Shown: positions 5,182-56,090 of the stretch, one piece after another
How positions within the stretch are numbered: position 1 is the first letter of the stretch
Layout: each line of letters opens with the position of its first letter
Assembly: GCF_001610975.1 (NCBI RefSeq)
Contig: NZ_CP013342.1
Span: 2,799,001-2,863,000, forward strand
DNA from: Sphingopyxis terrae subsp. terrae NBRC 15098
GTDB lineage: Bacteria; Pseudomonadota; Alphaproteobacteria; Sphingomonadales; Sphingomonadaceae
Reading direction: 5' to 3'
DNA length: 64,000 nucleotides
Program-made: the position numbers and the translations under genes
Notes under the pieces: model-generated
Database searches by the model: none
What the model saw: only the letters and a program-made list of their open reading frames with translations
What the model was told of the DNA's origin: nothing

Positions 5182-6060
5182 CTAGATCTTCGCTTCGAGC
5201 AGCCAGTCGTGAAACAGCTTGACCGCGGGCTGGCGCAGCGCGCGGGGGCGGCAGACGAACCAGTAGCTGTAAGGGCTGTCGACGTCGAAATCGAACAGAC
5301 GCACTAGCCGCGGATCCTGCGCGTCGTCGAAATGATGACCGTGCATGAAAGCGACGCCGATGCCTTGTGCTGCAGCCTCTAGCATCAGCGGTCCCGAATC
5401 GAAGAAATCGGTCCCCATCGGTTCGAGATACGGCATGCCGATCGCATTGCGCCATTCGTTGAAGGTTTCAGGCATTTCGCGGTGCAGCAGGATCGTCGCG
5501 CGCTGCAGCTGTTCGGGCACCGCGATCGGGCGCTCGCCATCGGTCAGCCCCCGTGCAGCAATCGGGAACACCTTGTCCTGATCGAGCCGGGCGGCATAAA
5601 GTGCGGGATCAATTGCGCGGGCAAGGGCTATCGCAGCGTCGATGCCTTCGCCGAGCCGCGCTTCACCGTGCGACAGCGTGTCGATGTCGATGTGCAGTTC
5701 GGGATGCGCGCGGCGCAGTTCGGGCAGGCGCGGGAACAGGCGCTGCTGCGCAAAGAGCGGAAGCACGTTGAGGTGCAGGCGGACCGACGCGTCGGGGCTG
5801 CCGACCTGGCCGATAACGCTGCGTAGTTCGTCGAGGATGGGCGACAACTGGTCCTGCAGGTCGCGCCCTGCCTCGGTCAGTCGCAGCCCATGATGATGGC
5901 GGTCGAACAAAGGTCGACCGACGGCATGCTCTAGCGTCTGGATACGGCGCGATAGGGCAGGCATCGAAAGGCCAAGCTCGCTCGCGGCGGCCTTCACCGT
6001 GCCATGACGGGCAACCTCCAGAAAGGCTTCCATACTGCTGAGGGGAGGAAGGCGTGGCAT
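5182..6060 (-). CDS. LysR-family transcriptional regulator
   Basis: A 292-residue regulator from the start at 6060 (MPRLPPLSSM). The N-terminal winged helix-turn-helix spans about residues 5-65 (LSSMEAFLEVARHGTVKAAA, SELGLSMPALSRRIQTLE, then GRPLFDRH). A LysR substrate-binding domain follows (about 90-285) with strands such as RLHLNVLPLFAQQRLFPRLP. The C-terminal 'YWFVCRPRALRQPAVKLFHDWLL' is typical of GcvA-like members. Its gene is divergent from the CDC48-type ATPase, with 149 bases between the two starts, so it might autoregulate or act on that neighbour. The inducer is unknown. Confidence 0.9.
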   Translation of the reverse strand: MPRLPPLSSMEAFLEVARHGTVKAAASELGLSMPALSRRIQTLEHAVGRPLFDRHHHGLRLTEAGRDLQDQLSPILDELRSVIGQVGSPDASVRLHLNVLPLFAQQRLFPRLPELRRAHPELHIDIDTLSHGEARLGEGIDAAIALARAIDPALYAARLDQDKVFPIAARGLTDGERPIAVPEQLQRATILLHREMPETFNEWRNAIGMPYLEPMGTDFFDSGPLMLEAAAQGIGVAFMHGHHFDDAQDPRLVRLFDFDVDSPYSYWFVCRPRALRQPAVKLFHDWLLEAKI

Positions 6061-6158
6061 GATCTGTCTCGATGGCGATGATGACATGCGTGTCAATCCC
6101 GCGCCAGACTTTTGTGCAGTGCGGCATGATTGGTCGGCGGTCCGAGGGTCGCAAATCG

Positions 6159-6184
6159 GGAACTGCCGTCCTATCTCTGCCGTT
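6159..6184 (+). promoter_or_regulatory. EcfG-type general stress promoter of the CDC48-type ATPase
   Basis: GGAAC at 6159-6163, exactly 17 bases, then CGTT at 6181-6184. This is the published consensus for alphaproteobacterial EcfG (general stress sigma factor) promoters, without a mismatch. The predicted transcript would begin near 6190, leaving a leader of about 20 bases that contains GGGAGA (6198-6203) before the TTG start at 6210. The fit in sequence, spacing and position is very good; activity is inferred. Confidence 0.68.
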
Positions 6185-6209
6185 CTGAACTCTTTGTGGG
6201 AGATTGGCG

Positions 6210-8534
6210 TTGGCCGACGCACCGGTAAAAGAAAAGCAGGTCAAGCTTCAGGTGGCGACTCTGCGCGCAGAAGAAAGCGGCGCGGGGATCGCCCGGATTC
6301 CGCGCACCGCAATGGTCGAACTCGGCGTGACCGAGGGCGATGTCATCCAGATCAGTGGCAAGCGCGACACCGCGGCGCGTGTGGTCGCACCGTACGCCGA
6401 GGATGAGGGGATCGAGGTGATCCGCCTCGATGGTCTGCAACGCGCCAATGCGGGCGCCGGCGCGGGCGATATGGTGCACCTGAGCCGGGTCGAGATGCGG
6501 CCCGCGACACGCGTCGTTTTCGCGCCTGCACAGGAAAATCTGCGGCTGCAGGGCTCGGCCAATGCGCTCAAGCGCAGTTTCTTCGGCCGTCCGCTGGTCG
6601 CCGGCGATACGGTCGCGACCGCCGGGCAACAGCGCGTTCCCGCAGGCGATATGCCGCCGCAACTGCGCCAGATGCTCAACGCGCCCGCTTATGCGCTCGC
6701 CGAGGTGCGCCTGCTTGTTGTCTCGGCGAACCCGAAGGGCGTCGTGTTCATCGACGAAAGCACCGAAGTCGAGCTGCTGCCCGAATATCAGGAACCGCAG
6801 GACGCGCGGCGCACCGACGTTACCTATGACGATCTGGGCGGGCTTGGTGACACGATCAATCAGCTGCGCGAGATGGTCGAGCTGCCGCTGCGCTATCCCG
6901 AACTTTTCCAGCGGCTCGGCGTCGATCCGCCGCGCGGCGTACTGCTCCACGGCCCGCCGGGAACCGGCAAGACGCGGCTTGCGCGCGCTGTTGCGAACGA
7001 AAGCGATGCGCAATTCTTCCTGATCAACGGGCCGGAGATCATGGGCAGCGCCTATGGCGAGTCCGAAAAGCGCCTGCGCGAGATTTTCGAGGCCGCGACC
7101 AAAGCCGCGCCGTCGATCGTCTTCATCGACGAGATCGACTCGATCGCGCCGAAGCGTGGCCAGGTAACCGGCGAGGCCGAAAAGCGCATCGTCGCGCAGC
7201 TTCTGACGCTGATGGACGGGCTCGAACCGCGCACCAATCTGGTGGTCATTGCGGCAACAAACCGCCCCGACGCGATTGACGAGGCGCTGCGTCGTCCTGG
7301 CCGCTTCGACCGCGAGATCGTGATCGGTGTGCCCGATGAGAGCGGGCGCCGCGAGATACTCGCGATCCATACCCGCGGCATGCCGCTGGGTGACGACGTC
7401 GATCTGGGCGAGCTTGCGCGCACGACCTTTGGTTTTGTCGGGGCGGACATGGCCGCGCTGACGCGCGAGGCGGCCATCGAGGCGGTGCGGCGGATCATGC
7501 CCAAGCTGAACCTTGAGGAAGGAACGATCCCGCCCGAAGTTCTCGCGGAATTGCGCGTGACGCGCGACGACTTTCTGAATGCGCTGAAGCGCGTCCAACC
7601 GTCGGCGATGCGCGAGGTGATGGTGCAGGCGCCGAAAACGCGCTGGAGCGACATCGGAGGGCTCGACGCGGCGCGCGACAAGATGATCGAGGGCATCGAA
7701 CTGCCGCTCAAACATCCCGAAGCGTTCCGCCGGCTGGGTATCCGCGCCGCCAAGGGCTTTCTGCTCTACGGCCCGCCAGGCACGGGTAAGACCTTGCTGG
7801 CAAAGGCGGCGGCGCGCGAGTCGGATGCGAATTTCATTGCGATCAAATCGTCCGATCTGCTGTCGAAATGGTATGGCGAGAGTGAGCAACAGATTGCCCG
7901 GTTGTTTGCACGCGCCCGCGCCGTCGCGCCGACGATCATCTTCATCGACGAACTCGACAGCCTGGTGCCGGCGCGCGGCAGCGGAACGTCGGGTGAGCCG
8001 CAGGTGACCGAGCGCGTCGTCAACACGATCCTGGCCGAGATGGACGGAATCGAAGAGATGCAATCGGTGATCGTCATCGGCGCGACAAACCGCCCGAACC
8101 TGATCGATCCCGCGCTGCTCCGCCCGGGACGGCTCGACGAATTGATCTATGTCTCGGTTCCGAATGCCGAGGGACGGAGGCGCATTCTAGAGATCCATAC
8201 CGCCAAAATGCCGCTCGCCGACGATGTGTCGCTCGACGCCCTCGCCGAGCGCAGCGACCGCTTTACGGGCGCCGATCTGGAGGATCTGGTGCGCCGGGCG
8301 GGGCTTGCCGCGCTCAAGCGATCGATCGCGAGCGATCTCGTCACCATGGCCGATTTCGAAGCTGCGCTGAAGGATACCCGAGCTTCGGTCACGGAGGCGA
8401 TGGAGCGCGACTATGAAAAAATCCAGGGCGAGATCAAGCAGCAGGCGATGAGCATCGACCCGATCGGCTTTTTCGCGCCCGGCATGCTGAAACCCGTTCG
8501 CGAGCAGAAGCACGCCGATGATGCGAAGGGCTGA
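6210..8534 (+). CDS. CDC48/VAT-type AAA+ ATPase
   Basis: A 774-residue protein resembling archaeal VAT and eukaryotic p97. The N-domain (about residues 10-185) has the double-psi barrel hallmark [20 protein letters not shown]. Two AAA+ modules follow. D1 has Walker A GPPGTGKT at about residue 248, Walker [15 protein letters not shown], and the second-region [21 protein letters not shown]2 has GPPGTGKT at about 521, [14 protein letters not shown] and [20 protein letters not shown]. The D2 pore loop reads KWYGESE. Such enzymes thread or unfold protein substrates. The start is TTG at 6210, chosen because GGGAGA sits six bases before it; an upstream TTG at 6204 is too close. A perfect EcfG-type promoter precedes it, pointing to induction in general stress. 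No C-terminal HbYX motif is seen; it ends DDAKG. Confidence 0.92.
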
Positions 8535-13986: not shown

Positions 13987-15930
13987 TCACGCGCCTTGTG
14001 GATGCGTGTCGCCAAAGGGGCGCGGTTTGCGCTTGATCTGCGGCAGGCCGCCAGCGTGCCCTTGAATGGGGGCGCCGGGCTTGTTCGCGTCGCTGTCGCG
14101 GCCAATGTCCTCGCCCTTGATCGCGCGGCGCGCCTCCTCGCCCGACAGCGTCTCATATTCGAGCAGCGCTCCTGCAAGCAGATGCAGCTCGTCGAGATGG
14201 TCGGTGAGCACCTTGCGCGCCGTCTTCTCGCCGTCCTCGACGAGGCGGCGGACTTCGGCGTCGATCAGCTTGGCGGTCTCCTCGGACATATTCTGCGCGC
14301 GCGAGACGCTGTGGCCGAGGAAAACCTCGTCCTGATTGTCGCGGTAGCGCAGCCAGCCGAGCTTGTCGGACATGCCATATTCCATGACCATCGAGCGCGC
14401 CATGTCGGTGGCCTGCTGGATGTCGTTCGACGCACCGGTATTAAGCTCGTCCTTGCCGTAGATGAGCTGTTCGGCGATGCGGCCGCCGAAGCAGAGCGCG
14501 AGGCGCGCCTTCATCTGCTTCATGCTCATCGAATAGCGGTCGCGTTCGGGAAGGTTCCACGTCACGCCCAGCGCGCGGCCGCGCGGGATGATCGTCACCT
14601 TGTGCAGCGGATCATTATGCTCGACATGGATCGACACGAGTGCGTGGCCCGCCTCGTGATAGGCGGTCGCCTTCTTTTCGTCCTCGGTCATCACCATCGA
14701 ACGGCGTTCGGCGCCCATGAGCACCTTGTCCTTGGCTTCCTCGAACTCGCCCGACGCGATCAGGCGCTTGCCCTTGCGCGCCGCAAGCAGCGCGGCCTCG
14801 TTGGCGAGGTTGGCAAGGTCGGCGCCCGAAAAGCCGGGCGTGCCGCGCGCGATGCGGCGCAGGTCGACGTCGGGGGCGAGCGGCTTCTTGCGCGTATGGA
14901 CCTCGAGGATCTTCTGGCGGCCTTCGATGTCGGGGCGCGGGACGACGACCTGGCGGTCGAACCGGCCCGGACGCAGCAGCGCGGGATCGAGAACGTCGGG
15001 ACGGTTGGTCGCGGCGACGATGATAATGCCCTCGTTCGCTTCGAAGCCGTCCATTTCGACGAGCAGCTGGTTGAGCGTCTGTTCGCGCTCGTCATTGCCG
15101 TTGCCGAGGCCGGCACCGCGATGGCGGCCGACCGCGTCGATTTCGTCGATGAAGACAATGCACGGCGCGTTGCGTTTCGCCTGCTCGAACATGTCGCGGA
15201 CCCGGCTGGCGCCCACGCCGACGAACATTTCGACGAAGTCTGAACCCGAGATGGTGAAGAAGGGGACGCCCGCCTCGCCCGCGATCGCGCGAGCGAGCAG
15301 CGTCTTGCCGGTCCCCGGCGAGCCGACGAGCAGTGCGCCCTTCGGAATCTGACCGCCAAGCTTTGAAAATTTGGTGGGGTCCTTCAGGAATTCGACGATT
15401 TCCTGCAACTCCTCGCGCGCCTCGTCGATGCCCGCGACATCGTCGAAGGTCACGCGGCCCTGCTTCTCGGTAAGCATCTTCGCGCGGCTCTTGCCGAAGC
15501 CCATCGCGCCCGACCCGTTATTTTTCTGAACCTGGCGGAAAACGAAGAAAGCGATGCCGAGGATCAACATGAAGGGCAGCGCCTGGATCAGCAGATAGAC
15601 CCAGATATTGCCCTGATCGGTCGGCTTGCCGTCATATTTGACGCCATTGTCGTTGAGCAGCTTGAGCAGTTCGGGATCGCGGACGATATTGGCCGAAAAG
15701 CTTTCGCCGCTGTTCAGCTTGCCGGAAACGCGGTCGTCGGAGAGGACGACTTCCTTCACCGCGCCTTCCTGAACCTTTTGACGGAACTCCGAATAAGCCA
15801 TCGGAGAACCCGTGCCCTGCGAGGCGCCGCCGAACATCGACGCGACGAGGAGCATGGCAAGCAGAATGCCGCTCCAGATCATCACGCTCTTCATCCAGGG
15901 GTTGCCCTGCGGTTCCTTGTCGTCCTGCAT
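13987..15930 (-). CDS. ftsH: ATP-dependent zinc metalloprotease FtsH
   Basis: A 647-residue membrane protease from the start [10 protein letters not shown]. It has two N-terminal membrane helices ([18 protein letters not shown] and [20 protein letters not shown]) flanking a periplasmic domain. The AAA+ module has Walker A GSPGTGKT, Walker [15 protein letters not shown], and the second-region [20 protein letters not shown]. The zinc site HEAGH lies in the C-terminal peptidase domain. FtsH degrades misfolded membrane proteins and short-lived regulators. Downstream of tilS and cpoB on the same strand, it is in the common alphaproteobacterial order. An upstream TTG (15987) would add 19 residues and is less likely. 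Confidence 0.97.
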
Positions 15931-16032
15931 TCGGAGAATATCCCAATCAACGCCAGCATCGCGAGAAGCCGCGACCATAGGCTGCAAGATAGGAATATCC
16001 GGTTAAATGACAATGCGCCAAGCGCGATAAAT

Positions 16033-19086: not shown

Positions 19087-19112
19087 GGAACATTCGCCGC
19101 CGCTCATCCGTT
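19087..19112 (+). promoter_or_regulatory. EcfG-type general stress promoter of the DUF1328 gene
   Basis: GGAAC at 19087-19091, 17 bases, then CGTT at 19109-19112: a mismatch-free match to the alphaproteobacterial EcfG promoter. It lies 66 bases before the DUF1328 start. It is the second such site found upstream of a gene in this window. Confidence 0.65.
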
Positions 19113-19178: not shown

Positions 19179-19352
19179 ATGTTCAAATGGGCGTTGATCT
19201 TCGCCGTGATCGCATTGCTCGCGGCCGTTCTCGGCTTTTCCGGCGTGGCCGGCGCGGCGGCCGGGATTGCCAAAATCCTCTTCTTCGTCGGCTTGGCCCT
19301 GGTTGTTCTCTTCCTCGTCCTCGGTTCGGCCGCGGCGAAGAAGATCAGCTGA
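19179..19352 (+). CDS. DUF1328 small membrane protein (YtjA family)
   Basis: A 57-residue peptide, [20 protein letters not shown] followed by [16 protein letters not shown] and a second helix ending at AAAKKIS. The two-helix hairpin with a central Gly/Ala-rich turn is the DUF1328/UPF0391 family. GAAAGG lies 11 bases before the ATG. Members are abundant, stress-induced inner membrane peptides without a proven biochemical role. The upstream GGAAC-N17-CGTT promoter and a terminator just after the stop indicate a single-gene transcript under the general stress response. Confidence 0.9.
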
Positions 19353-19464: not shown

Positions 19465-20766
19465 TCAGAGCACATATTTGCTGAGATCTGTGTCCCCCAC
19501 GACATCGGCGAGTTGCTTGTCGACATAGGCGGCGTCGATTTCGAGCGTCGTGCCGGGCATATCCTCGGCAGTGAAGCTCACTTCCTCGACAAGCCGCTCC
19601 ATGATCGTCTGGAGCCGGCGGGCCCCGATATTCTCGACCTTTTCGTTCACCTCTGCCGCGAGCCGGGCGACGCGTGCGATCGCATCGGCGGTGAAGCTGA
19701 GCGTGACCCCTTCGGTCCCGAGCAGCGCGGCATATTGCTCGGGCAGGCCCGCCTTGGTTTCGCTGAGGATGCGAACGAAATCCTCCTCGCTTAGCGCCCC
19801 CAGTTCGACGCGGATCGGCAGGCGACCCTGCAATTCGGGGAGCAGGTCGCTGGGCTTGGCGACGTGGAACGCGCCGCTGGCGATGAAGAGGATATGATCG
19901 GTCTTCATCGGCCCATATTTGGTTGCGACGGTCGTCCCTTCGATGAGCGGCAGCAGGTCGCGCTGGACGCCCTCGCGGCTGATCGAGCCGCCGCGCACGT
20001 CGCTGACCGCGATCTTGTCGATCTCGTCGAGGAACACGATGCCATTGGCTTCGGCATCGGCGAGCGCGACGCGCGCGACATCGTCCTGATCGAGCCGCTT
20101 GTCCTGCTCTTCCTCGATCAGCCGCGTCGCAGCGTCTATGACCTTCATCTTGCGGCGCTTCTTGGGCAGGCCGCCCATCGCCTTGCCGAGCATGTCGGAG
20201 AGGTTGATCATGCTCATCTGGCCGGGCTGTCCGGGCAGATCGAACGGCATGCCGGGGGCGTCGGAGACCTCGATTTCGACCTCGCTATCGTCGAGATGAC
20301 CTTCGCGGATACGCTGGCGGAAGCTCTGGCGTGTAGCTTCGCTGGCGCCCTTGCCCGTCAGGGCGTCGAGCAGCCGCTCCATCGCAGCTTCTTCGGCGGC
20401 CGCGCGCACCGCGCCGCGGCGGCGATCTTTCTCGAGGCGCACCGCTTCCTCAACCAGGTCGCGGGCGATCTGCTCGACGTCGCGGCCGACATAGCCGACT
20501 TCGGTGAACTTGGTCGCCTCGACCTTGATAAAGGGGGCGTCGGCAAGCTTGGCCAGGCGGCGCGAAATCTCGGTCTTGCCGCAGCCGGTGGGGCCGATCA
20601 TCAGGATATTCTTGGGGCTGACCTCATCGCGTAAGTCGGGCGCGAGCTGCTGGCGGCGCCAGCGATTGCGGAGCGCAACGGCGACCGCGCGCTTGGCGTC
20701 CTTCTGGCCGATGATGTGCGTGTCGAGTGCGGCGACGATCGCCTTCGGAGTCAAATCCTTGTTCAT
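19465..20766 (-). CDS. hslU: ATP-dependent protease ATPase subunit HslU
   Basis: A 433-residue AAA+ unfoldase. Walker A GPTGCGKT is at residues 58-65, Walker [14 protein letters not shown] in the middle, and the insertion (I) domain at about residues 110-225 includes [19 protein letters not shown]. Sensor-2 region: [20 protein letters not shown]. The C-terminal DLSKYVL tail is the docking segment that inserts into HslV. It unfolds substrates and feeds them to the HslV chamber. The start [10 protein letters not shown] is four bases after the hslV stop, giving a classical hslVU pair. Confidence 0.97.
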
Positions 20767-20770
20767 GATA

Positions 20771-21337
20771 TTATGCCTGAATTTCGATGGTTTCGAGCGT
20801 GGTCTGGTCGTTGGTGTAGACGCAGATATCGGCGGCGACCTGCATCGCCTTTTTCGCCAGCACCTCGGGGTCCTTTTCATAATCGGCGAGTGCGCGCGCC
20901 GCCGACAGCGCGAAATTGCCGCCCGAGCCGATCGCGGCGATGCCGCCGAGCGGTTCGAGGACGTCGCCGTTGCCGGTGATGACGAGCGTTACTTCCTTGT
21001 CGGCGACGATCATCATCGCTTCCAGATTGCGCAGATATTTGTCGGTGCGCCAGTCCTTGGCGAGTTCGACGGCCGCGCGCAGCAACTGTCCATTATGGCG
21101 TTCGAGCTTGGCTTCGAGCCGCTCGAACAGGGTGAAGGCGTCGGCGGTCGCACCCGCGAAGCCGCCGATTACGCTGCCGTCGTGAAGGCGGCGGACCTTG
21201 CGGGCGTTGGGCTTCATCACCGTCTGCCCCATCGACACCTGACCGTCGCCGATTACGACGACCTTGTCTGCGTTGCGGGCGGAGAGGATGGTGGTTCCGT
21301 GCCAGGGCGCGTCACGGTGCGCGGTCGATTGGGTCAT
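20771..21337 (-). CDS. hslV: ATP-dependent protease peptidase subunit HslV
   Basis: A 188-residue Ntn hydrolase. The sequence reads [18 protein letters not shown], so the catalytic threonine is at residue 15 after a 14-residue propeptide; many alphaproteobacterial HslV proteins have this extension while the E. coli protein does not. The following [20 protein letters not shown] block and [14 protein letters not shown] are family hallmarks. Twelve subunits form the proteolytic chamber capped by HslU. A probable heat-shock promoter lies directly in front, so close that the message may be almost leaderless. Confidence 0.96.
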
Positions 21338-44976: not shown

Positions 44977-46935
44977 CTATTCGACGCTTTTGACATGATG
45001 ATCGCCAAGGAGAGTAGCCCACTGGCCGCCTGCGGCGTATTCTGGAACAAGACGACCGATAATCTGCATCGCCGCAACGGCGTCGCCGGTCCCGCGAATG
45101 GTGGTGTCGAGTTCCTTCAGCATCGCGTCGAGTTCGGGCCATTGCAGCAATCGCTCGCGCGCCCGCATGATCCGGGGGTGGTTCGTAGGTTCGGGATTAT
45201 TGCCGATCAGTAGCTCTTCATAAAGCTTCTCACCCGGCCGCAGCCCTGTCTCGACGATCTCGATGTCGCCATCGGGGTGATCGGCGTCGCGTATGTTGAG
45301 CCCCGAAAGCCGGACCATCGCGCGCGCCAAGTCTGCGATCCGAACCGGTTCCCCCATGTCGAGTACAAACACCTCGCCCCCCTTTGCCATTGCGCTCGCC
45401 TGAATGACGAGTTGCGCGGCCTCAGGAATAGTCATGAAATAACGCGTGATTTCGCGGTGCGTCAGCGTCAGCGGTCCGCCAGCTGCAATCTGCGCTTTGA
45501 ATAACGGTACGACTGACCCGCTGGAACCCAGAACATTGCCGAATCGCACCATGCTGAAGATCGTCCCCACGTCCGGGTTGGCGGCGCGCGCCTGCAGGAT
45601 CAACTCGCAAACGCGCTTCGACGCACCCATGATATTCGTCGGCCGCACCGCCTTGTCCGTGCTTATCAATGTGAAATTGGTCGCCCCAAATTCTTCGGCC
45701 GCCTCGACGCTGTACAGCGTTCCCATAATATTGTTACGCAAGCCCGAAATCGGATTCGCCTCGACGAGGGGAACATGCTTGTAGGCGGCAGCATGGAACA
45801 CTGTTTCGGGGCGATGCCGATTGTATACGCGACGCATCGCCGAGCGTTCGGAGACGTTCGCCAGTTCAAGCTCGAGCGGAACAGTTTCGCCCAGTGCGCG
45901 CATCATCGCATCGAGCTCGCGTTCTATTGAATAGAGTGCGAACTCGCTCTGCTCAAGAAGCACAAGCCGCGCCGGGCGACAGCGAACCATCTGACGACAG
46001 AGCTCGCTGCCGATCGAGCCACCGGCACCCGAGACGAGAACGCGTTTCCCAACAATTGTCCGACTCATAAGCAATTCGTTTGCCGCCACCGCTTCGCGGC
46101 CCAGCAGTTCCTCTATCTGGATCTCGCGCAGATCGCTGACGGTGATGCTGCCATCGATGACGTTGGTCAGGCTGGGGAGCGACCGGACATAGACGTCCTC
46201 ACCCTGCAACTCTTCGATAATCTCGCGCCGTCGCGCGCGCGACGCGCTGGGAATCGCCAGCAGAACTTCGTCGGCGGCGGTATCCTGGAGCACTTGGCGC
46301 AGCCGAAAAGACCCAAAAACCCGTACGCCGTCGAGCCGCTGGCCGTCAAGCCGGGCGTCGTCATCGACGAAGCCGACAAGATCCACCTTCGGCTCGTGGC
46401 GCAGCGACAGCGCCAGCTGCTGGCCGGCGCGCCCCGCGCCGTAAACGAGCATGCGTCGCGCATTAACATCGACGACCTTCAACAAGTCAAGCAATGCGAA
46501 TCGAATGGCGATGCGGCTTGCGGCGAGCAGCAGCAGGAAGATGATCGGATGCAACACGCTGAGCGTACGCGGCACGTCGGGGAGTCGGAACAGCACGCAC
46601 ACCACGAGAAGCGGAATCATCAGGAGTCCGCACGCGACCGCGAGGTCCGCCACCGTACGCGAGCCCGAATAGCGGATCAGCGAACGATACACGCCCGATC
46701 GCCACGCGATAGGATACCAAAAAAGCAACGCGCAGGCGGCGAAGCTCGCAATCGGACGCGAGAACAGTTCCCACACGCCGAGCCGGAGCGAAAAGGCGAT
46801 CCACACGGCCATGAGGCAAAGTACGCCATCGATCATGACAGCTGCAGCCTGGCGCTGGACGCGCGGACGATCACCGATGAAATTCAGGGTCTGCTTCCGC
46901 AGGCGGCGCCAATAGTCATAGTCTCGAAATGTCAT
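44977..46935 (-). CDS. UDP-N-acetylglucosamine 4,6-dehydratase family (WbpM/CapD/PglF-like)
   Basis: A 652-residue, long-form enzyme. Four N-terminal membrane segments (about residues 30-150, for example MIDGVLCLMAVWIAFSLRL and SVLHPIIFLLLLAASRIAI) are followed by a CoA-binding-like Rossmann domain (RMLVYGAGRAGQQLALSL). The catalytic SDR domain follows: LVSGAGGSIGSELCRQMVRC, HAAAYKHVPLVEANPISGL, ISTDKAVRPTNIMGASKRV. This corresponds to WbpM-type enzymes that make UDP-4-keto-6-deoxy-GlcNAc, precursor of QuiNAc, FucNAc or bacillosamine. The fused SDR-transferase downstream is the likely next enzyme. The start at 46935 (MTFRDYDYWR) is chosen over an upstream in-frame codon. Confidence 0.92.
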   Translation of the reverse strand: MTFRDYDYWRRLRKQTLNFIGDRPRVQRQAAAVMIDGVLCLMAVWIAFSLRLGVWELFSRPIASFAACALLFWYPIAWRSGVYRSLIRYSGSRTVADLAVACGLLMIPLLVVCVLFRLPDVPRTLSVLHPIIFLLLLAASRIAIRFALLDLLKVVDVNARRMLVYGAGRAGQQLALSLRHEPKVDLVGFVDDDARLDGQRLDGVRVFGSFRLRQVLQDTAADEVLLAIPSASRARRREIIEELQGEDVYVRSLPSLTNVIDGSITVSDLREIQIEELLGREAVAANELLMSRTIVGKRVLVSGAGGSIGSELCRQMVRCRPARLVLLEQSEFALYSIERELDAMMRALGETVPLELELANVSERSAMRRVYNRHRPETVFHAAAYKHVPLVEANPISGLRNNIMGTLYSVEAAEEFGATNFTLISTDKAVRPTNIMGASKRVCELILQARAANPDVGTIFSMVRFGNVLGSSGSVVPLFKAQIAAGGPLTLTHREITRYFMTIPEAAQLVIQASAMAKGGEVFVLDMGEPVRIADLARAMVRLSGLNIRDADHPDGDIEIVETGLRPGEKLYEELLIGNNPEPTNHPRIMRARERLLQWPELDAMLKELDTTIRGTGDAVAAMQIIGRLVPEYAAGGQWATLLGDHHVKSVE

Positions 46936-47117
46936 CGTACGGGCAAATCCTCGCAGGCGCGATCTCGGGGGGCTGCCAGAGAGGCCCCGACAAAGGTTGC
47001 GCGCCGCAAGCAGAACGGCACGACAAATACTTTGGTTCCTGTAAAAGCAATGCCATAGACGTTCAACAAGTGATGCGTTCAATCCACCCTTAGCTCTTTG
47101 GAAACTATCGCGTCTGT

Positions 47118-55824: not shown

Positions 55825-55904
55825 GAGTACCTCCAGCGTAACGGCTTGCCGTCACGCGAGGATCCTCGCCTGCGCCCGGTGCACCCCGCCCGCGTGCAGA
55901 TAAC

Positions 55905-56090
55905 GGCGACGCCCTGGCAGGTCTCCTGGCTCGCCGGGTCAGCGGTGGGATGCGGCCTTCCCGGAAGACAAGCTTCCAGTGGCATGATTGCATCCACCTC
56001 GCCGGACTACAGTTGCGGGGGCAGCGCCGGATCGACCGGTCTTCCCTTTTCATGCCCGTCACCGGGCAACCCGAGGTCACGGTGCGGGCC
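55905..56090 (-). promoter_or_regulatory. Cobalamin riboswitch
   Basis: On the minus strand the B12 box AGCCAGGAGACCTGCC lies at 55931-55916. Upstream are GCCCCCGCAACTGTAGTCC and ATGCCACTGGAAG (matching the conserved GCCCCCGCAACTGTAA and ATGCCACTG elements), and the 5' element GGTTGCCCGGTGACGGGCAT. These appear in the order of a cobalamin aptamer. Between the box and the receptor's ribosome site there is a perfect palindrome GCGAGGATCCTCGC (55856-55869) that could serve the expression platform. It controls btuB and the coupled btuFCD genes, presumably repressing them when adenosylcobalamin is plentiful. Confidence 0.92.

Follow-up and report, generated by a model that had tools for sequence, protein, structure and literature searches.

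What switches on the CDC48-type ATPase gene of Sphingopyxis terrae? We read this gene in a stretch of 64,000 nucleotides (the window). The initial annotation would place it under the general stress response, because of an EcfG-type promoter directly in front of it. That idea is plausible, but it leaves out a second, RpoH-like element in the same promoter. Our main reading, which we hold with a probability of about 0.48, is that an EcfG-type site overlaps a wider-spread RpoH-like promoter and that each of the two sigma factors would start CDC48 transcription. The parts of the locus are the following.

5182..6060, minus strand: LysR-family regulator, divergent, with a common intergenic region shared with CDC48
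6148..6153, plus strand: weak RpoH-like -35 element GTCGCA, 16 bases (6154-6169) before CCTATCT
6159..6163, plus strand: EcfG-type -35 box GGAAC
6170..6176, plus strand: RpoH-like -10 element CCTATCT, inside the EcfG spacer
6181..6184, plus strand: EcfG-type -10 box CGTT, at N17 after GGAAC
6198..6203, plus strand: ribosome-binding site GGGAGA, upstream of the CDC48 start
6210..8534, plus strand: CDC48/p97-family AAA ATPase with a TTG start (TIGR01243, 906.4 bits against a cut-off of 802.65)

The protein is indeed of the CDC48 type, as the TIGR01243 score confirms. It has the same CDC48_N and CDC48_2 domains and the same two AAA stretches as the CDC48/p97/VAT ATPases, here in a protein from the sphingomonad lineage. 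To our knowledge, little is known about the biology of bacterial CDC48/p97 homologues outside the actinobacteria. As a CDC48-type relative we compared Cpa of actinobacteria, as far as it is described in the accessible text of PMC6017811.

Where the gene begins matters for every distance given below. The ORF finder starts it at an earlier TTG, at 6204. Position 6210 is the better start, because the TTG at 6204 abuts GGGAGA and because the letters at 6210 are conserved: TTGGCC in 37 of the 38 Sphingopyxis loci L001-L038 and GTGGCC in the remaining one. With this start the described letters of GGAAC-N17-CGTT hold at 6159-6184 (plus strand), 25 bases separate CGTT from the TTG, and GGGAGA lies between the two.

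In published EcfG promoters GGAAC is followed, after a spacer of N16-17, by CGTT or CATT, at most 100 bp from the start, according to the accessible parts of the studies on Sphingopyxis granuli TFA (PMC7083833) and Sphingomonas melonis Fr1 (PMC6599016). The CDC48 site resembles these promoters in boxes, spacing and start distance: it has GGAAC, CGTT at N17, the correct orientation and less than about 100 bp to the start. A matrix built from 22 S. melonis EcfG sites gives the window site p = 0.0002.

A single match in the window is, taken alone, little proof. It is only suggestive because about one match is expected by chance and there is no genome-wide excess. The expectation of about one chance motif in 64 kb was accurate (1.06 in dinucleotide shuffles). 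The count of two motifs was too low: there are three exact matches, at 6159 (plus), 19087 (plus) and 47039-47014 (minus), and at least three matches occur in 9 of 100 dinucleotide shuffles of the window. All three point at a start codon, as had been said of the motifs, with the starts being the analyst's choice. The match at 19087-19112 (plus) lies 66 bases upstream of the ATG at 19179 of a DUF1328 small membrane protein (57 aa, 19179-19352). The match at 47014-47039 (minus) lies 78 bases upstream of the ATG at 46935 of a Polysacc_synt_2 protein.

Across the genome the motif is not over-represented: 40 matches stand against 70 for the reversed pattern, a crude control. We therefore rejected genome-wide enrichment as support for the EcfG motif. 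Some of the 40 sites look promoter-like, judged from gene calls on 1-kb pieces that are too rough for a count. A regulon of the composite GGAAC-N6-CCTATCT-N4-CRTT was also rejected, since the genome holds it at one exact place and at one with two mismatches; its reversed control gave 1 and 2. With the lone match and the genome count both weak, conservation carries the weight.

To follow conservation we kept the best 80 of 225 CDC48 loci (L001-L080) from a protein scan of genome contigs. Of the genomes searched at E<=1e-150, 75 of 80 in the genus and 160 of 247 in the order have the gene. L001-L038 are treated as Sphingopyxis: 34 are so titled, and L010, L013, L015 and L035, which are MAGs or isolates of vaguer title, were placed by a CDC48 tree. 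Together with the window they form the 39 Sphingopyxis promoters. The other 42 loci, L039-L080, are mostly titled Sphingomonas and are called the Sphingomonas set below. A third set holds 59 of 160 loci from other genera, hand-chosen rather than random, from 33 of 37 matching genus codes; 3 of the 59 bear the window's own genus code, as outlying members of it. The S. terrae locus L001 encodes a CDC48 protein with 100% identity to the window's own. Further upstream than about -65, L001 (1-232) departs from the window; its contig starts there, and the departure may be an assembly edge.

In Sphingopyxis the EcfG boxes are mostly kept. GGAAC is present in 36 of the 39 promoters, and GGAAC-N16/17-C[AG]TT in 29 (the window and 38 loci from the best 80 of 225). 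The -10 box is CATT at N17 in 18 of them, CATT at N16 in four, one base shorter and still within the allowed spacing, and CGTT at N17 in seven, a number that counts both the window and L001 with their identical CDC48 protein. S. granuli NBRC 100800 (L003) is among the loci with the exact motif. The other ten sites are broken: in seven the -10 box is off with GGAAC intact, and three have no GGAAC. Among these relatives the motif is conserved in part: most have GGAAC and the C[AG]TT pair, few the exact CGTT (7 of 39). Most of the sister species that we examined keep the general-stress motif, usually in a weaker form. A CATT box need not be inactive: the S. granuli mltA2 promoter, which has CATT, is recognised in vitro by both EcfG holoenzymes, and the commonest S. 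granuli -10 boxes besides CGTT are TGTT, CATT and GGTT, according to the accessible text of PMC7083833.

At p<0.01 the EcfG matrix accepts 30 of 39 Sphingopyxis promoters, none of the 42 in the Sphingomonas set, 5 of the 59 from other genera and 1 of 242 other upstream regions; at p<0.05 the numbers are 36, 35, 19 and 17. Since the sequences are related, these counts do not amount to independent tests, and the top-scoring site within 100 bases may be non-homologous. The matrix background consists of 20,000 random 100-bp stretches of the L001-L080 loci with the CDC48 promoters removed. The 242 comparison regions are syntenic copies from the L001-L038 loci, with approximate starts. Because of the strict counts (30/39 against 0/42 and 5/59), a strict EcfG match is, as judged by this matrix, a Sphingopyxis trait.

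Could GGAAC-N17-CGTT then be a coincidence in the window species, with CDC48 outside EcfG control? By chance one would expect roughly one exact match in 64 kb, there is no genome-wide excess, and the exact CGTT occurs in only 7 of 39 Sphingopyxis promoters. However, chance would not readily give 36 of the 39 promoters GGAAC at a common position and 29 of them C[AG]TT at N16/17, or yield 30 of 39 strict matrix matches against 1 of 242 other regions. We regard coincidence as quite improbable. That EcfG uses the promoter in the window species is somewhat more likely than not.

Conservation is not confined to the two boxes. In an ungapped column profile of the 39 promoters, anchored on CCTAT[CG]T, the GGAAC columns are 90-97% conserved. 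Of the nine spacer columns adjoining GGAAC, eight reach 49-77% and one 90%. The conserved stretch begins some 26 bases ahead of CCTATCT and runs to the ribosome site, with little conservation further upstream, and TCG-AAA, GGAAC, CCTATCTT and C-TTCTGAC stand out. The CCTAT[CG]T columns are high by construction, because the anchor motif is present in all 39. The 60 bases before the gene are very likely a real CDC48 promoter.

CCTAT[CG]T itself is found in 39 of 39 Sphingopyxis promoters (the window and 38 from the best 80 of 225). The initial annotation found a real motif but overlooked a conserved CCTATCT inside its spacer, which resembles the -10 element of RpoH promoters. The RpoH consensus is CTTGAA-N15-16-CCTATAT and CTTGCC-N15-16-CCTATCT (accessible text of PMC4843759, quoting Barnett 2012). 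We compared it with control promoters: for dnaK, groES and hslV we read 10 genomes with six genus codes, groES giving 12 loci, and for clpB 12 genomes. The dnaK promoters have CTTGNN-N15-CCTATAT in 10 of 10. Of the 10 hslV promoters, 8 have CTTG, the remaining two TTTG and ATTG, and 6 have CCCATAT. The groES promoters have CTTG in 9 of 12 and GTTG in 3, four of them reading CTTGAC-N16-CCCATAT, and 10 of 12 clpB promoters have CTTGTG-N15 with ACTATCT, ACTATGT or a near form as the -10. The controls agree with the consensus as quoted in that text.

The CDC48 element is like the alphaproteobacterial RpoH (sigma-32) promoters of dnaK, groESL, clpB and hslV in its -10 CCTATCT and in the spacing of 15-16 bases. 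It is unlike them in three ways: the -35 is GTCGCA instead of CTTGNN, an EcfG-type site overlaps it, and 21 of the 59 other-genus CDC48 loci have CCTAGCT. In the window the -10 fits CCTATNT/CCCATNT and the spacing is 16; since GTCGCA is off consensus, lacking CTTG, we call the element RpoH-like and do not file it as an RpoH promoter. A matrix from 44 control sites of the four genes (dnaK, groES, hslV and clpB, equally weighted) gives it p = 0.026; in L177 the clpB site that was picked is a non-homologous one.

Outside Sphingopyxis the element is widespread and variable. Exact CCTATCT occurs in the last 100 bases in 35 of 38 Sphingopyxis loci, 18 of the 42 in the Sphingomonas set and 11 of 59 from other genera. 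CCTAGCT is absent from the first two sets (0/38 and 0/42) and present in 21 of 59 in the third. The looser CCTA[TGC][CGT]T covers 38/38, 21/42 and 45/59 (33 genera). At N15/16 upstream, nTCG[CAT]n is found in 37/38, 14/42 and 9/59, and nTTG[CA]n in 0/38, 0/42 and 26/59. The RpoH matrix, subject to the same limits as the EcfG matrix, accepts at p<0.05 39 of 39 Sphingopyxis promoters, 37 of 42, 52 of 59 and 31 of the 242 other regions, and at p<0.01 5, 19, 22 and 7. The RpoH-like match is thus broader than the strict EcfG match and individually weaker. In Sphingopyxis and across the wider family CCTATCT is the more constant of the two elements; in the Sphingomonas set it is not. That it is the most constant element everywhere we rejected, as in the Sphingomonas set it reaches 21 of 42 and GGAAC-CGCT 31 of 42.

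Other counts also speak against the RpoH part: a TTG- or TCG-type -35 at N15/16 is found in only 35 of 59 other-genus loci, and the CCTAGCT of 21 of 59 is off the RpoH consensus. A CCTAG-type -10 does precede a heat-shock gene as well: of the own genome's two groES copies, one reads CTTGAA-N16-CCTAGTT.

Alternatively, the second element could belong to the housekeeping sigma-70, with TATCTC/TATCTT as the -10 (TAGCT in other genera), a weak -35 and the EcfG site overlapping it. The TTG[CA]A-N17-TAGCT of other genera (nTTG[CA]n at RpoH spacing in 26 of 59) also resembles sigma-70 promoters that have a TTG -35. Many alphaproteobacterial sigma-70 promoters do without the T at -7, according to the accessible text of PMC8407463. 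Yet 6000-6300 holds no consensus sigma-70 site, a scan with little power because 0.0 sites are expected in shuffles, and the conserved CC before TA is shared with the dnaK and hslV promoters of the same genomes. With an anchor blind to CC, it is kept in 39 of 39 Sphingopyxis promoters, 26 of 42 in the Sphingomonas set and 45 of 59 from other genera. We know of no such CC as a sigma-70 feature. We consider a housekeeping promoter unlikely. That RpoH uses the promoter in the window species is slightly favoured over its contrary.

How do the two elements behave when lineages part? In the Sphingomonas set (42 loci from the best 80 of 225), 31 loci have GGAAC no more than 110 bp upstream, each of them with CGCT at N16/17. 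In the 11 loci without GGAAC the homologous letters are not CGCT. Among other genera GGAAC stands directly before the -10 in 5 of 59 loci, all of the genus code g2 and all with CGCT; L118 and L171 have CGCT without GGAAC. None of the 22 S. melonis EcfG sites has CGCT as its -10 box. GGAAC and CGCT mostly seem to behave as one promoter, with CGCT off the EcfG consensus. For the motif outside Sphingopyxis this means that GGAAC is widely kept in the Sphingomonas set, but with CGCT as its partner, and that it is rare in other genera.

Within L001-L038 every locus retains CCTAT[CG]T, and 10 of the 38 have lost the EcfG pair. In the S. paucimobilis group eight loci (L046, L048, L050, L053, L067, L069, L075 and L080) have GGAAC-N16-CGCT without CCTATCT, and L033, L039 and L042 have CCTATCT without GGAAC. 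Hence the two parts are lost separately. In L049, L054, L057 and L063 both are absent or altered. The CDC48 tree of the best 80 of 225 loci, built by a quick method and with the L034 row filled to only 20%, requires a minimum of 10 changes in the GGAAC pair, 7 in its TT ending and 6 in CCTAT.T. This count required N[AG][CT]T in the -10, hence the pair is scored in 59 of 80. An independent-pairs test of GGAAC against CCTAT.T, a test without power, gave a median p of 0.5.

These patterns bear on the possibility that EcfG is the only sigma factor here and that CCTATCT is conserved otherwise, for example as a regulator site or as a spacer shape that tunes EcfG output. The window has the full EcfG consensus, 29 of 39 Sphingopyxis promoters fit, and GGAAC-CGCT outlasts CCTATCT in the Sphingomonas set (31 against 18-21 of 42). 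The S. granuli authors argue, in the accessible text of PMC7083833, that the spacer sequence affects EcfG output. However, CCTATCT/CCTAGCT persists without GGAAC in L033, L039 and L042, and 45 of 59 other-genus loci have CCTA[TGC][CGT]T with only 5 carrying GGAAC before the -10. The CDC48 promoter also differs from the 22 S. melonis EcfG sites, none of which has CCTATCT in its spacer. EcfG alone is therefore, to us, an improbable account.

For our preferred reading of two overlapping promoters, what we observe are the sequences, their conservation, the protein family and the presence of sigma factors. Every genome searched at E<=1e-60 gave a single rpoH match, in two overlapping sets (10 of 10 and 40 of 40). 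Three NepR matches were found in the own genome, two exceeding the cut-off and one falling short of it. An ECF sigma factor directly follows the first, and a second ECF sigma is divergent, an EcfG-like layout similar to that described for S. granuli in the accessible text. No EcfG-specific model gave a match over its cut-off. An exact EcfG motif lies about 165 bp before the first NepR match. The proposal of EcfG control thus gains from the motif, the NepR and ECF sigma genes and the 29 of 39 conserved pairs, but 10 of 39 sites are broken and the second element was overlooked.

Of the 30 Sphingopyxis rpoH loci that were read, 28 have an exact GGAAC-N16-CGTT some 80 bp upstream of rpoH, as does one of seven genomes from other genera. 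The loci read were L259 and L264-L292 plus the own genome, and 30 of 40 genomes gave loci.

C1:3795055-3795079 (L257, L267): exact GGAAC-N16-CGTT before rpoH of the own genome

This motif may reflect coding, because it shares letters with the final codons of the gene upstream. The last codon of that gene is GTT in 28 of 28, against 8.9% of Val codons in the CDC48 genes, and several other codons nearby are invariant too. It may be that EcfG drives rpoH too. One could extend the scheme and see the p97/CDC48 of Sphingopyxis as a joint output of the general-stress and heat-shock circuits, in a coherent feed-forward loop: EcfG would drive rpoH and CDC48, RpoH would drive CDC48 through CCTATCT, and the EcfG -35 would have been fixed inside an ancestral heat-shock spacer. 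We think this extension doubtful.

The surroundings of the gene are partly shared among relatives. A LysR-like divergent gene precedes CDC48 in 6 of 7 gene-called loci, Sphingomonas included (read by eye). In relatives the mmgR/suhB sRNA (RF00519) lies directly upstream of CDC48 on the same strand, with its terminator just before the CDC48 promoter. It is found in 8 of 10 scanned loci (L043, L047, L048, L054, L060, L064, L114 and L122), the other two being Sphingopyxis. By coordinate comparison it stands beside CDC48 in 9 of 15 genomes, seven of them above the cut-off, and elsewhere in the genomes G000 and G007. The Rfam scan of the window returned only a tRNA and a cobalamin riboswitch, neither of them at the CDC48 promoter. 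The window also holds hslV and, with the ORFs below, a loose grouping of proteostasis genes.

13987-15987, minus strand: ftsH-like ORF, named by eye
19465-21295, minus strand: hslU-like ORF, named by eye
55899-56088, minus strand: cobalamin riboswitch (Rfam, 106.7 bits)

How would the overlapping promoters work? Many genera of the family carry a heat-shock-like promoter before CDC48: TTTG[CA]A, CTCGCA or GTCGCA, then 15-16 bases, then CCTATCT or CCTAGCT. In the Sphingopyxis and Sphingomonas lineages GGAAC stands inside the spacer of this RpoH-like promoter, with a partner at N16/17 that is C[AG]TT in Sphingopyxis (the EcfG type) and CGCT in Sphingomonas. The window species combines an EcfG site at full consensus with a weak RpoH-like -35. 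General stress would free EcfG from NepR to transcribe CDC48 at the GGAAC site, and RpoH would use the CCTATCT site when heat or misfolded proteins are the stress. We infer which holoenzyme takes which site, which site is the older, where transcripts start and what induces them.

In searches of one open-access library we found no report that links CDC48 to EcfG or, judged by titles and opening abstract lines, to RpoH, and no overlapping EcfG/RpoH-like architecture of this kind. The words CDC48, AAA and ATPase are absent from the main text of PMC7083833 and PMC6599016. CDC48 is hence a candidate addition to known regulons, and the novelty is modest; it is the overlapping architecture that these searches did not turn up.

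Taken together, stress probably turns on the CDC48 unfoldase. With a conserved stress promoter, the unfoldase would belong to protein quality control under stress. The promoter would also illustrate how promoters evolve, with the -35 of one sigma factor standing within the spacer of another and with separate loss of the two in sister lineages.
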